Shown: piece by piece, positions 1,716-28,935 of the stretch
How the letters are laid out: every line of letters begins with the position of its first letter
Numbering within the stretch: the stretch's first letter is position 1
Assembly: GCA_001785115.1 (NCBI GenBank)
Contig: MFSU01000052.1
Location: forward strand, 1 to 33,207
Source: Candidatus Muproteobacteria bacterium RBG_16_65_34
Lineage (GTDB): Bacteria > Pseudomonadota > Gammaproteobacteria > Acidiferrobacterales > Sulfurifustaceae
DNA length: 33,207 nucleotides
Direction of reading: 5' to 3'
The notes under the pieces: model-generated
Database searches by the model: none
Seen by the model: only the letters and a program-made list of their open reading frames with translations
What the model was told of the DNA's origin: nothing
Translations under genes and position numbers: made by a program

Positions 1716-1819
1716 CCCCGCCACTAAATCAGGGGCATGTTCTGGTGAACATGCGGAGCCGTTGGGCCCATCGCTGCTCGGATGGATGCCGATGGCAGGC
1801 CCCTGTTTTAGTGGCGGGG
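1716..1819 (+). repeat. Inverted repeat forming P3 of aptamer 1 (CCCCGCCACTAAATCAGGGGC / GCCCCTGTTTTAGTGGCGGGG)
   Basis: 21-nt arms pair with one mismatch. The outer 13 nt are identical to the repeats at 1890-1987 and (with one fewer C) 15411-15480. Confidence 0.9.
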
Positions 1820-1889
1820 CGCCGACGGCGCAACCCGCCCGGAATCGCTCAGGCAAAAGGACCGCGGGGATCAGTCGACTCTGGAGAGA

Positions 1890-1987
1890 CCCCGCCACTA
1901 AACCGGGGGAATGCCGGTGCGAAATAGAGTAGACGGCGACCACTCGCTTTGTTCGCATCGAAGGCATTACCCGATTTAGTGGCGGGG
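1890..1987 (+). repeat. Inverted repeat forming P3 of aptamer 2 (CCCCGCCACTAAACCGGG / CCCGATTTAGTGGCGGGG)
   Basis: 18-nt arms pair with one mismatch. Same outer arm sequence as the aptamer 1 insert but an unrelated interior. Confidence 0.9.
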
Positions 1988-2175: not shown

Positions 2176-3273
2176 ATGGGACTTAGAACGCCGTTATACG
2201 ACAACCACGTCAAGATGGGCGCCAAGATGGTGGACTTCGGCGGCTGGGACATGCCGCTGCACTACGGCTCCCAGATCGAGGAGCATCGCAAGGTGCGGGC
2301 CGACTGCGGCATGTTCGACGTCTCGCACATGAACGTGGTCGATCTCAAGGGCGCGGGCGTGCGCGATTTCCTCAAGCTGCTGCTCGCCAACAACGTCGAC
2401 AAACTGAAGACGCAGGGCAGAGCGCTGTACAGCTGCCTGCTCAATACCAAGGGCGGCGTGATCGACGACCTCATCGTGTACTTCATGGACGCGCAGTGGT
2501 TCCGGATCGTCGCCAACGCCGCCACGCGCGAGAAGGACATGGCCTGGATCGGCACCGCCGCGCGCGAATTCGGCGAGGTGAAAGTGGTGCAGCGCGACGA
2601 TCTCGCCATGATCGCGGTGCAGGGTCCGAACGCCAAAGAGAAGGTCTACCGGGCGCTCGGCGAGCAGCTCCGCGGGCTCGCCGGCGAGATCAAGCCGTTT
2701 CACTCGGTGACGGTCGGAGCGTTGCATGTCGCCACGACCGGCTACACCGGCGAGGACGGATTCGAGATCGTTCTTCCGGCCACGGCCGCCGCCTTTACCT
2801 GGCAGATGCTGCACGAGGCCGGCGTCCCGCCCTGCGGGCTCGGGGCGCGCGACACGCTGCGGCTCGAGGCCGGGATGAATCTCTATGGCGCGGACATGGA
2901 CGAAACCACCACGCCGCTCGAAACCGGACTGGCCTGGACCGTCGCGCTCGAGCCCGCGGATCGCAAGTTCATCGGGCGCGAGGCCCTGGAAAAGCAGAAT
3001 GCCGCCGGCGTTCCGCGCCAGCTCGTCGGGCTCGTGCTCGAAGACAAGGGCGTGCTGCGCAACCACCAGAAGGTCACCTGCGACGGCGCGGGCGAGGGCG
3101 AGATCACCAGCGGCACGTTTTCGCCCACGCTCGATATGTCGATCGCGCTGGCGCGCGTGCCGGCCGCCGTCGGTATCGGCGAGCGCTGCACGGTGGACCT
3201 GCGCGGCAGGCCCGCGTCGGTGCGCGTCGTGAAGTATCCGTTCGTCCGTAATGGCAAGAGTTGCTTTGGCTAG
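2176..3273 (+). CDS. gcvT: Aminomethyltransferase, glycine cleavage T protein
   Basis: [30 protein letters not shown]...[10 protein letters not shown]...[21 protein letters not shown]; adjacent to gcvH. Confidence 0.97.
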
Positions 3274-3310: not shown

Positions 3311-3706
3311 ATGAACACGATTCCCAAAGACCTTAGATACACGAAGTCGCACGAGTGGGTGAAGCAGAATCCCGACGGTACCGTGACCGTCGGCATCACG
3401 CACCACGCCCAGGACCTGATGGGCGACATGGTGTACGTGGACCTGCCGCAGGCAGGCGCGCAGGTCGCCGCGGGCAAGGAGTGCGGCGTGGTCGAATCGG
3501 TGAAGGCGGCCTCCGACATCTACGCGCCGGTTTCCGGCGAGATCGCCGAGGCCAACGCGGCGCTCGCCGCCGCGCCCGAGACCGTGAACAAGGACCCCTA
3601 CGGCGCGGGCTGGATGTTCCGGTTGAAGCCCGCGAACAAAGCCGAGCTCGATGGTCTGCTCGATGCCAAGGCGTACGAGGCGCTGGTGGCTTCGGAGAAG
3701 CATTGA
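3311..3706 (+). CDS. gcvH: Glycine cleavage H protein
   Basis: RYTKSHEWV...[17 protein letters not shown] (lipoyl-lysine motif ESVKAAS). Confidence 0.98.
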
Positions 3707-3713
3707 AAAAATA

Positions 3714-5252: not shown

Positions 5253-5753
5253 ATGGCCGAGATCAAACTACGCGGAACCCCCATCCACACCAACGGCGAT
5301 CTGCCCAAGGTCGGCGGCCCCGCCCCCGACTTTCATCTGACGGACGCGGATCTGAACGACGTCACGCTCGCGAGCTTCAAGGGCAAGAAGAAACTCCTCA
5401 ACATCGTGCCCTCGCTCGACACGCCGACCTGCGCGCTGTCGACGAAAAAGTTCAACGAGGACGCCAAGAAGCGCAACGACGTCGTGATGCTGATCGTCTC
5501 GGCCGACCTGCCGTTCGCGCAGAAACGCTTTTGCAGCGCCGAGAACACCAACAGCGTGAAGACGCTGTCGATGATGCGCGACCGCAACTTCGCCAAGGAC
5601 TACGGCGTGCTGATCCAGGACGGGCCCTTGAAGGGCATCACCGCGCGCGCGGTGGTGGTGCTCGATGAGAACGACAAGGTGAAGTACACCGAGCTCGTGC
5701 CCGAGATCGCGCAGGAGCCGAATTACGACAAGGCGCTGGCGGCGTTGAAATAA
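5253..5753 (+). CDS. tpx: Thiol peroxidase (Tpx-type peroxiredoxin)
   Basis: VGGPAPDFHLTDADLNDVTLASFKGKKKLLNIVPSLDTPTCALSTKKFNE...ADLPFAQKRFC. Confidence 0.95.
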   Translation: MAEIKLRGTPIHTNGDLPKVGGPAPDFHLTDADLNDVTLASFKGKKKLLNIVPSLDTPTCALSTKKFNEDAKKRNDVVMLIVSADLPFAQKRFCSAENTNSVKTLSMMRDRNFAKDYGVLIQDGPLKGITARAVVVLDENDKVKYTELVPEIAQEPNYDKALAALK

Positions 5754-5807
5754 GGAAGAGAGACTGGTATTAGTTTTCGACGCAGAGACGCGAAGGCGCA
5801 AAGAAGG
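5691..5807 (+). repeat. Direct repeat copy 1: tpx 3' end plus downstream sequence
   Basis: About 117 nt nearly identical to 6362-6478 (GAGCTCGTGCCCGAGATCGCGCAGGAGCCGAATTACGACAAGGCGCTGGCGGCGTTGAAATAAGGAAGAGAGACTGGTATTAG...). Confidence 0.95.
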
Positions 5808-6301: not shown

Positions 6302-6361
6302 TGAGTCGTGCAGGAGGGCTTTGTTGTGACGCCGGAAGGGCTCGATGTCACCAGGCACATG

Positions 6362-6478
6362 GAACTCGTGCCCGAGATCGCGCAGGAGCCGAATCACGAC
6401 AAGGCGTTGGCGGCGTTGAAATGAGGAAGAGAGACTGGTATTAGTTTTCGACGCAGAGACGCGAAGGCGCAGAGAAAA
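6362..6478 (+). pseudogene. Direct repeat copy 2: relic of tpx C-terminus (ELVPEIAQEPNHDKALAALK*) plus downstream sequence
   Basis: Constant 671-nt offset from 5691-5807. In-frame C-terminal residues are retained but the rest of tpx is absent. Confidence 0.9.
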
Positions 6479-15133: not shown

Positions 15134-15297
15134 TGTTCCCTGCCGTAGCATAGCGTGCGGGTAGGTCGGCCTCGCCCGCCGATATCGGCTTGGCGAAGCC
15201 GCGATCTCCCGAAGCCGGATTCGCGGCGGCACGCATTGCGTTGGGTGTCGATCGTGGCTATTTTTTCTGGAAAAAGCAGTTATCCGCAGATTTCGCA

Positions 15298-15391
15298 GAT
15301 TATTGCGGCGGCACGAATCTACCTGAACATGCCGAGGAGGCCTGAAACGGCGCCGGCACCGCATCGAAGCCTCGATGCCGCCGCAATAATC
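15298..15391. repeat. 94-bp element with perfect 16-bp inverted termini
   Basis: GATTATTGCGGCGGCA ... TGCCGCCGCAATAATC, with an inner GCATCGA-AGCC-TCGATGC hairpin. Confidence 0.85.
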
Positions 15392-15410
15392 GAAAAGTCA
15401 TAAGATTTTC

Positions 15411-15480
15411 GTCCCGCCACTAAATCGACACAAAGGGACTGCAAATTGGCACGGCGGTACCGTCGATTTAGTGGCGGGAC
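15411..15480. mobile_element. 70-bp MITE-like element with perfect 19-bp terminal inverted repeats
   Basis: GTCCCGCCACTAAATCGAC ... GTCGATTTAGTGGCGGGAC. Termini match the inserts in both glycine aptamer P3 stems. Mobility is inferred. Confidence 0.7.
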
Positions 15481-15653
15481 GCAGATGAATCATTTGGCTT
15501 GAATGACTGCCTGGCGCGCCCATATGGTGAGAGAAGGAAAGTTACTCGTAACATTCTTAAAATCTGCGGAAATCTGCGTAATCTGCGGATGCAATCGCCG
15601 TTTTTAGGTTCATTCAAGCGGCCTCACAAAAAAACCGGATCCTCGCGCACACC

Positions 15654-24911: not shown

Positions 24912-24968
24912 TGATCCACACCGTCGTCACATTCACGAACTCGCGGATGCCGCGGGCGGAAAGCCCCC
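24912..24968 (-). pseudogene. Relic of aldehyde dehydrogenase C-terminus (LSARGIREFVNVTTVWI)
   Basis: About 84% match by eye to the 3' end of the intact ALDH gene at 25325-25381, on the far side of ykgJ. Confidence 0.75.
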
Positions 24969-25319: not shown

Positions 25320-26678
25320 TTACCTGATCCACACCGTCTTGATGTTCACGAACTCGCGGATGCCGTGAACGGAAAGCTCGCGCCCATAACCGGAGGCCTT
25401 CACGCCGCCGAAGGGCAGCCTGGGGTCGCTCTTCACCATGCCGTTCACGAAGCTCGCGCCCGACTGGATACGCCGCGCGAATCGCTCGCCGCGCGCGGCG
25501 TCCGCGGTCCAGACGCTCGCGCCCAGGCCGTAACGGTTGTCGTTGGCGATGCGCAGGGCGTCGTCCTCGTCGCCGGCCCGGATGACGATCGCCACCGGCC
25601 CGAAGAGCTCTTCTTCATAGGCGCGCATGCCGGGCCGGACCTGATCGATCATGGAGGGCTGGTAAAAATAACCCGGCCCGGCGATCGGCGCGCAGCCGAA
25701 GACGGCGCGGGCGCCCGCCTGGATCGAGTCGGCGACTTGGCGGTGCAACTGCGCGCGCAAATCCGCGCGCGCCAGGGGCGCAAGCGTTGTGTCCGCCTTC
25801 AGGGGATCGCCGGCTTTCAACGCCTCGGCCTTCTGCCGGAACAGTGCGATGAACCGTTCCGCGATCTCGGGAACCAGAATGAAGCGCTTGGCGGCGATGC
25901 AGCTCTGGCCGCAGTTCTGGAAGCGCGCGGTCACACCGACACTTGCGGCCTGCTCGAGGTCGGCGTCGGCGAGCACGACGAAGGCATCCGAGCCGCCGAG
26001 CTCGAGCACGGTTTTCTTGAGCGCGGCGCCCGCGGCCGCGGCGATCTTCCGGCCCGCGGCCTCGCTGCCCGTGAGCGTCACCGCGTGGATGCGCGGGTCG
26101 GCGATGAGCTGCTCCGCCTGCGTCGCCGGGATCATGAGCGTGCGGAACACGCCCGCGGGAAAGCCCGCGGCGCGGAAGATCTCTTCGATCGCCAACGCGC
26201 ATTGCGGCACGTTCGAGGAATGCTTGAGCACCATCGTGTTGCCGGCCATGAGCGCCGGCGCGGCCGCGCGGAACACCTGCCAGAAGGGAAAATTCCACGG
26301 CATGACGGCGAGGATCGTCCCGAGCGGGAGATAGGCGATGTAGCTCGATCCCGCGTCGGTCTCGATCTTTTCATCCCTGAGAAACTCCGCGGCCTGCCCG
26401 GCGTAGTACTCGCAGCCCCAAGCGCATTTCTCCACCTCGGCACGCGCCTCCTTGAGGAGCTTGCCCATCTCGAGCGCGACGAGCGCGCCGTAGCGCGCGG
26501 CGTAGCGCCGCAGTTCCGCGGCGGCGTTGCGCATCAGCCGCGCGCGCTCCTCGAACGGGGTCGCCCGCCAAGCCGGCGCCGCGACGGCACTCTCCGCGAG
26601 CGCCGTCTCAAGCTGCGCGTCGCGCCACGGTTCGTAGCTTTTCAACAACTCGCCGGTCGCGGGATTGATGGATTCCAT
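25320..26678 (-). CDS. NAD(P)-dependent aldehyde dehydrogenase (succinate-semialdehyde dehydrogenase-like)
   Basis: MESINPATGELLKSYEPW...VMPWNFPFWQVFRAAAPALMAGNTMVLKHSSNVPQCA...ELGGSDAFVVLADADLE...FQNCGQSCIAAKRF. Confidence 0.94.
   Translation of the reverse strand: MESINPATGELLKSYEPWRDAQLETALAESAVAAPAWRATPFEERARLMRNAAAELRRYAARYGALVALEMGKLLKEARAEVEKCAWGCEYYAGQAAEFLRDEKIETDAGSSYIAYLPLGTILAVMPWNFPFWQVFRAAAPALMAGNTMVLKHSSNVPQCALAIEEIFRAAGFPAGVFRTLMIPATQAEQLIADPRIHAVTLTGSEAAGRKIAAAAGAALKKTVLELGGSDAFVVLADADLEQAASVGVTARFQNCGQSCIAAKRFILVPEIAERFIALFRQKAEALKAGDPLKADTTLAPLARADLRAQLHRQVADSIQAGARAVFGCAPIAGPGYFYQPSMIDQVRPGMRAYEEELFGPVAIVIRAGDEDDALRIANDNRYGLGASVWTADAARGERFARRIQSGASFVNGMVKSDPRLPFGGVKASGYGRELSVHGIREFVNIKTVWIR

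Positions 26679-28759: not shown

Positions 28760-28765
<6 letters not shown>
26816..28765 (+). CDS. slt: Soluble lytic murein transglycosylase (Slt70-like)
   Basis: Helical repeat N-terminus and catalytic domain VRQESAFVVDARSQAGALGLMQLMPQTGRLTGR...LATAAYNAGPNRIGAWMP. Confidence 0.94.
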
Positions 28766-28870
<105 letters not shown>

Positions 28871-28935
28871 GGCGGAGTGCGTTATAGTATTCAGCCGTTG
28901 CCTCGCTACTCGCCACTCGAAACTAGCTGCTGCCT

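Follow-up and report, generated by a model that had tools for sequence, protein, structure and literature searches.

Why do both aptamers of a tandem glycine riboswitch carry an unusually long hairpin with the same arms? The locus lies upstream of gcvT in Candidatus Muproteobacteria bacterium RBG_16_65_34, within what we call the window, the whole 33,207-nucleotide stretch of DNA analysed here. Its features are as follows.

1697-1874, + strand: glycine riboswitch aptamer 1 (Rfam RF00504, 58.1 bits)
1716-1728, + strand: 5′ arm of the P3 hairpin of aptamer 1, CCCCGCCACTAAA
1729-1806, + strand: interior of P3 hairpin 1, 78 nt, unlike the other interiors
1807-1819, + strand: 3′ arm of the P3 hairpin of aptamer 1, TTTAGTGGCGGGG
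1875-2033, + strand: glycine riboswitch aptamer 2 (Rfam RF00504, 37.1 bits)
1890-1902, + strand: 5′ arm of the P3 hairpin of aptamer 2, CCCCGCCACTAAA
1903-1974, + strand: interior of P3 hairpin 2, 72 nt
1975-1987, + strand: 3′ arm of the P3 hairpin of aptamer 2, TTTAGTGGCGGGG
2025-2059, + strand: intrinsic-terminator-like hairpin GGGGCGATGGC/GCCATCGCCCC followed by a T run, read from the sequence
2176-3273, + strand: gcvT (glycine cleavage T protein), the ORF downstream of the riboswitch, named by eye from its sequence
starting at 3311, 3837 and 6603: gcvH-, gcvPA- and gcvPB-like ORFs after gcvT
15411-15480, no strand assigned: free copy, a class A hairpin (see below) inside a longer dispersed repeat

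Rfam places the two hairpins exactly at P3, where the initial annotation had read them, and their outer 13 nt are identical. The P3 stems measure 105 nt in aptamer 1 and 99 nt in aptamer 2. Despite these inserts, both aptamers exceed the RF00504 gathering score of 32 bits; aptamer 2, which scores lower, has two mismatches in P1 when aligned to the Rfam model. The terminator-like hairpin overlaps the 3′ side of aptamer 2 and is probably the expression platform. At one and the same stem position, copy 1 has T/T, copy 2 has C/A and the free copy has a T-A pair, just as the initial annotation described. All three fold far better than shuffled sequences (z = -7.0 and -7.7 for the P3 hairpins, -8.9 for the free copy), and their interiors are unrelated, as had also been claimed. 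The hairpin stem takes the place of a variable peripheral helix and could conceivably have been domesticated as RNA structure, as the initial annotation suggested. An inverted repeat of the GCAGATAAACGCGGATAAACGC type (2071-2103 / 2135-2167) lies between the riboswitch and gcvT.

The arms recur throughout the host genome, a 75% complete MAG of 2.03 Mb in 109 contigs. CCCCGCCACTAAA occurs eight times in the forward and eight times in the reverse orientation, in every case as part of an inverted pair spanning 68-104 bp, whereas its reversed control has no occurrence in the 2.03 Mb, so the repetition is not due to chance. When the search was relaxed to CCGCCACTAAA and the pair on contig C48 was added, the total came to 19 places, bearing out the expectation of further genomic copies. 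These hairpins are about 64-104 bp long, contain no ORF and are inverted pairs, except for the copies truncated by contig ends; since several copies stop there, the census is a lower bound. Assembly error is possible at repeats in a MAG, and the copy at C109:25235 adjoins an assembly gap.

The 19 places fall into two classes. In class A (14 places), comprising the free copy of the window and 13 others, the interior is conserved. Ten of the 14, the free copy included, lie inside a longer dispersed repeat; the remaining four have unique flanks, and no recognised RNA gene is found at these sites. The free copy had been said to share the same ends, and its location held up, but its outer arm agrees at 12 and not 13 positions (TCCCGCC for CCCCGCC). 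Class B (five places) has the same outer stem around unrelated interiors of 72-78 nt, and four of the five copies are in or against RNA genes. Apart from the two glycine P3s, its copies, which are absent from the initial annotation, are as follows.

P3 of RNase P RNA (RF00010, 339 bits): class B copy
5′ edge of tRNA-Val(TAC): class B copy, whose last bases overlap base 1 of the tRNA
C48:40843-40938: class B copy, the pair CCGCCACTAACCCGG/CCGGGTTAGTGGCGG in outline

The C48 copy has no credible Rfam match, drawing only miRNA models far below their cut-offs, and was therefore ruled out as a known RNA. An extra helix at a stem tip, resembling the intervening sequences (IVSs) of rRNA, is present in P3 of both aptamers and of RNase P. 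The interiors of the riboswitch, RNase P and tRNA copies have no mutual similarity, which rules out decayed copies of a single sequence.

The window contains several other repeats. The free class A hairpin is part of a composite dispersed repeat, which spans approximately 15238-15600, recurs at nine other places and also holds a nested palindrome, TTATTGCGGCGGC...GCCGCCGCAATAA, missing from the copy on C56. Dispersed ACAGGATTAACAGGATT repeats lie at 3707, 21836, 24472 and 29942, with complements, and several form inverted pairs. A 120-nt direct duplication (5686-5805 and 6357-6476, 94% identical) covers the end of a peroxiredoxin-like ORF. A 53-nt direct repeat (24912-24964 and 25325-25377, 87% identical) has its first copy at the end of an aldehyde-dehydrogenase-like ORF and its second further downstream, and a tandem array of heptamers, from AGTAGCG to AGTGGCT, occupies 28761-28884.

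Relatives from other genera show what the riboswitch looks like without the hairpins. A match was obtained in 51 of 60 genomes of the family and order, nearly always with two aptamers, and the sequence outside P3, including the terminator-like platform, closely resembles that of the window. Among the relatives measured, the median P3 is 26 nt in aptamer 1 and 20 nt in aptamer 2, confirming that stems of about 100 nt are unusually long; these short P3s are mutually unrelated and come from other genera, as the genus is represented by a single genome. The comparison of gcvT leaders proposed at the outset found short P3s in these other genera. Because the relatives have tandem aptamers with short, unrelated P3s, the tandem riboswitch is older than the hairpins, and the aptamers were therefore occupied separately, or one was converted from the other. 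A single insertion before aptamer duplication, which the initial annotation had allowed, is contradicted by this pattern. Insertion of a hairpin into the riboswitch is well supported.

The paired arms were found in none of 193 relatives searched. Near-identical arms, CCCCGCCGCTAAATCG...CGATTTAACGGCGGGG, with one compensatory change and one mismatch, enclose an unrelated, shorter interior in the RNase P P3 of G005, which belongs to another genus of the same family; elsewhere this genome has two ORF-less palindromes, a loose CCCCGCTACTAAATCGGC-TT-GCCGATTTAGTAGCGGGG and a degenerate one. In G034, from another family of the order, related arms (CCACTAAATCG, CCACTGAATCG) occur in both glycine P3s, which are 70 and 52 nt long and contain CCCGACCACTAAATCG and CCCAGCCACTGAATCG.

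In several relatives, RNase P also has a long P3, built on different arms (L182, L183, L162, L163 and L177), such as a perfect 24-bp CCCGACTACTCACCCTAAAGGAGC stem in G025; these are possible further hairpin families. In another genus, the glycine riboswitch P3s of L147 (G031) and L148 (G035) are 50-78 nt long and in part of low complexity; they seem to have grown in some other way.

Beyond the order, we scanned 85,462 species for CCCGCYRCTAAA pairs, with the arms fixed in advance. The scan returned 13 places, close to the number estimated from base composition and thus about what chance could give; the locations are what goes beyond chance, and the weight rests on them. Two matches are in SAH riboswitches (RF01057) of gammaproteobacteria, Ca. 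Thiosymbion oneisti and a Sedimenticola MAG, where the hairpins sit in the same loop but have different interiors. Two more are in 23S rRNA of Planctomycetota: one was checked with Rfam and has a second hairpin in the same gene, and the other was assigned by the same local sequence. The RNase P RNA of the planctomycete KLAP200 (G194) contains two hairpins whose interiors look alike by eye. Five matches from Bacteroidales and Actinobacteria (L224, L227-L230) lie at the 3′ ends of tRNA-fMet genes, where the 3′ strand of the acceptor pairs with sequence downstream to make a long hairpin, of which it is one arm; we did not count them as firm members, since that strand itself gives CCCGCTA. The last three (Bosea, Spirochaetales and Lysobacterales) are not in known RNAs. 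A plasmid or phage origin was rejected: neither the class A element nor the GIY-YIG protein described below matched the plasmid collection searched, and a single viral-contig match had no obvious relation.

The KLAP200 genome also has a longer copy. Here, a 326-bp element in 23S rRNA, with arms CCCCGCTACTAAAATGCTCT/AGAGCATTTTAGTAGCGGGG, surrounds an intact ORF whose product has a GIY-YIG domain (Pfam, 1.2e-14), an endonuclease-encoding version of which the initial annotation was unaware. The arm of the endonuclease-bearing copy, CCCCGCTACTAAA (L268/L306), differs from CCCCGCCACTAAA of the window at one of 13 positions. This is the only GIY-YIG ORF seen with YRCTAAA arms, the other GIY-YIG loci having different ones. 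In the host genome, at 75% completeness, we found no GIY-YIG ORF with these arms; there is one distant GIY-YIG ORF, on C29, without them.

A protein search of Planctomycetota with the KLAP200 GIY-YIG sequence gave matches in 130 of 395 genomes. The nearest relatives are in the RNase P RNA of G380 and in the 23S rRNA of G332 (two copies), and the nearest homologues in general are in 23S rRNA, in RNase P RNA or beside tRNAs, many of them hairpin-ended. The G380 element and one ORF-less KLAP200 hairpin occupy the same RNase P helix, and this helix is P12 by comparison with E. coli. Other homologues lie inside elements about 265-370 bp in length that end in hairpins, with terminal sequences such as CCCCGCACACA and CCCCGTTAGAGAT, and are located in 23S rRNA, RNase P P12 and elsewhere. 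A tRNA or tmRNA lies within 150 nt of 26 of 55 distinct GIY-YIG loci, all 26 on the same strand, as compared to about 1% expected by our estimate from tRNA density, although the 55 are a non-random draw to which many-copy genomes contribute several; in a gammaproteobacterial set the count was one of 18. Flanking inverted repeats scoring 13 or more were found at 19 of 66 loci versus 0.7% of chimeric controls, most loci being without a strong one. Four small gammaproteobacterial GIY-YIG ORFs (L277, L280, L284 and L287) are flanked by common GTCATCCCGCG/CGCGGGATCCAG-type inverted repeats and are perhaps another hairpin family tied to GIY-YIG.

In three genomes, a GIY-YIG element and an ORF-less hairpin have their outer arms in common: G194, G304 and G574. 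The ORF-less hairpin of G304 (L320; 73 bp) directly adjoins the GIY-YIG element, and that of G574 (L312; 29 bp) is close to it. In the latter two, agreement stops after the outer ~9 nt and further in the arms are different, an oddity also seen in the window.

The boundaries provide a further clue to how the hairpins arrived. At 17 sites, with few exceptions, they read CC/CCGCY...RGCGG/GG (slashes marking the edges), so that the immediate flanks are complementary CC and GG at nearly all of them; no consistent direct repeat indicating a target-site duplication was found at these 17 sites. The C30, Spirochaetales and Bosea copies, which are outside RNA genes, sit at the centre of existing palindromes. 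Together, these observations fit insertion at hairpin tips. The anatomy and distribution read from the sequences, with common arms, an insertion-like spread, sites in RNA genes and a GIY-YIG ORF in one copy, lead us to favour, as the better-than-even explanation, that the long P3s are separate hairpin insertions and that the short copies belong, as non-autonomous members, to a class of GIY-YIG elements with hairpin ends. The riboswitch hairpin then looks like a little-known parasite hiding in the tips of functional RNAs.

On this anatomy, we infer the steps of cutting, homing and exchange as follows. The element would be defined by its outer arms, CCCCGCYRCTAAA...TTTAGYRGCGGGG, with the interior free to vary. 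A full-length element would carry the gene for a small GIY-YIG endonuclease, and this enzyme, acting in trans, would cut and home DNA and mobilise the short copies as well; most likely it recognises or cuts hairpin tips or arms, with repair copying the hairpin in. In this way the element could have entered the P3 tip of a working tandem glycine riboswitch, separately for each aptamer. With palindromic arms, the insert would always branch off the host RNA as an extra helix of its own, looped out, with which the RNA could still fold and the aptamers presumably retain their function, and the element may preferentially survive in, or be targeted to, RNA stem tips. Repair between copies, using the arms as homology, would keep the arms fixed and the interiors exchangeable. 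Points against this explanation are that unrelated interiors inside identical arms are odd for ordinary transposition, that the short P3s come from other genera and not from the species or genus itself, that the host genome yielded no GIY-YIG ORF with these arms, and that the GIY-YIG loci other than the KLAP200 copy have different arms and mostly no strong flanking inverted repeat.

Could the hairpins instead be an ordinary MITE, the non-autonomous derivative of a DDE-transposase IS, with the RNA sites as tolerated insertions? The 19 copies do look like bacterial MITEs in being short, multi-copy and ORF-less with terminal inverted repeats, one family has a conserved interior, and the majority of class A copies are within another dispersed repeat. 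However, the 17 sites lack a consistent target duplication, and a conventional MITE with such a duplication was rejected; the host genome revealed no longer arm-bounded transposase element or known transposase for these hairpins; the one long element found with arms of this kind, in another phylum, codes for a GIY-YIG nuclease; and the copies with unrelated interiors are strongly biased to RNA genes. We consider this origin unlikely. Selection rather than targeting offers another account, in which the element is mobile without site preference, by whatever route, RNA-gene copies are kept since a stable tip helix is neutral or stabilising, and the copies with unrelated interiors are older or from different sources. 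The four class A copies at unique sites without a recognised RNA gene and the three palindrome-centred sites agree with it. Old copies, however, should lose arm and interior identity equally, whereas the arms are identical and the interiors unrelated, and the GIY-YIG homologues are concentrated at same-strand RNA genes, making this account improbable in our judgement.

A further account does without a mobile element: the P3 helices would be ancestral or convergent, the arms having originated within the RNAs and passed from one P3 stem to another through gene conversion or template switching. In its favour are the related-arm RNase P P3 common to another genus and the native P3s of some relatives, which begin ACCCC or CCCCGC. 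This account seems very unlikely given that, in the host, the same arms recur at 14 dispersed positions where no RNA gene is recognised, that unrelated RNAs in other phyla have them too, and that relatives in the same family have short, unrelated P3s. A broken riboswitch with the hairpins as decay, to which the lower score and P1 mismatches of aptamer 2 might point, is hardly credible when the core outside P3 and the terminator-like platform match relatives so closely and both aptamers pass the gathering threshold despite the inserts. Of what the initial annotation proposed, a repeated palindrome set into a permissive stem is supported by the many copies, the short P3s of relatives and the arms in other structured RNAs and other phyla.

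Several known systems resemble these hairpins in part. REP sequences and REPINs are dispersed palindromes mobilised in trans by the small nuclease-like RAYT protein. The likeness is in the dispersed palindromes and the small nuclease-like protein; the enzyme associated here is a GIY-YIG protein, whereas RAYT is a Y1 transposase, and the GTAG/GGAG tetranucleotide at the hairpin foot was absent in the flanks examined. The RPEs of Rickettsia, stem-loop repeats of 105-146 bp reported from the genes of tmRNA and of RNase P RNA (Ogata et al. 2002, cited in PMC2229807), are likewise short stem-loop repeats inside RNA genes. As they are described there, RPEs are Rickettsia families of similar sequences, whereas class B conserves its outer arms only, and the hairpins reported here span several phyla, occupy riboswitches and have an endonuclease-encoding version. 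The IVSs of 23S rRNA are also additional sequence within a structured RNA, tolerated by the ribosome (PMC11270868), but the present arms are found in riboswitches, in RNase P RNA and beside tRNA and not in rRNA alone.

A parallel to the GIY-YIG ORFs inside rRNA comes from CPR bacteria, whose rRNA insertions encode GIY-YIG proteins, match neither group I nor group II introns and are mostly at the top or base of stem-loops; the authors doubted that the GIY-YIG copies had spread by homing (PMC11270868). That study covers rRNA only, and its main text names no hairpin, palindrome or inverted repeat. A 2024 review of MITEs only speculates about riboswitches (PMC10969869). In the open-access literature, we found no paper describing a natural riboswitch aptamer with a mobile repeat in it and none on GIY-YIG elements that end in hairpins, which is weak negative evidence, and arm fragments led to unrelated papers only. 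We tentatively raise, as somewhat short of an even chance, the broader possibility of a widespread and undescribed mobile class, in which hairpin-ended GIY-YIG genes and their ORF-less satellites home into the stem tips of structured RNAs such as riboswitches, RNase P RNA and 23S rRNA, and to sites bordering tRNA and tmRNA genes, in different bacterial phyla, the outer stem serving as both recognition sequence and splint and the interiors being swapped between fixed arms.

The erratic long peripheral helices of riboswitches, RNase P RNA and rRNA may thus have a source in parasitic hairpins rather than in slow growth of the helices. Such elements would also offer a testable way in which small GIY-YIG nucleases, usually annotated merely as nuclease family proteins, persist and propagate. 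An enlarged aptamer gets a low score in RNA annotation or may escape searches, and riboswitches of this kind may therefore be under-counted.
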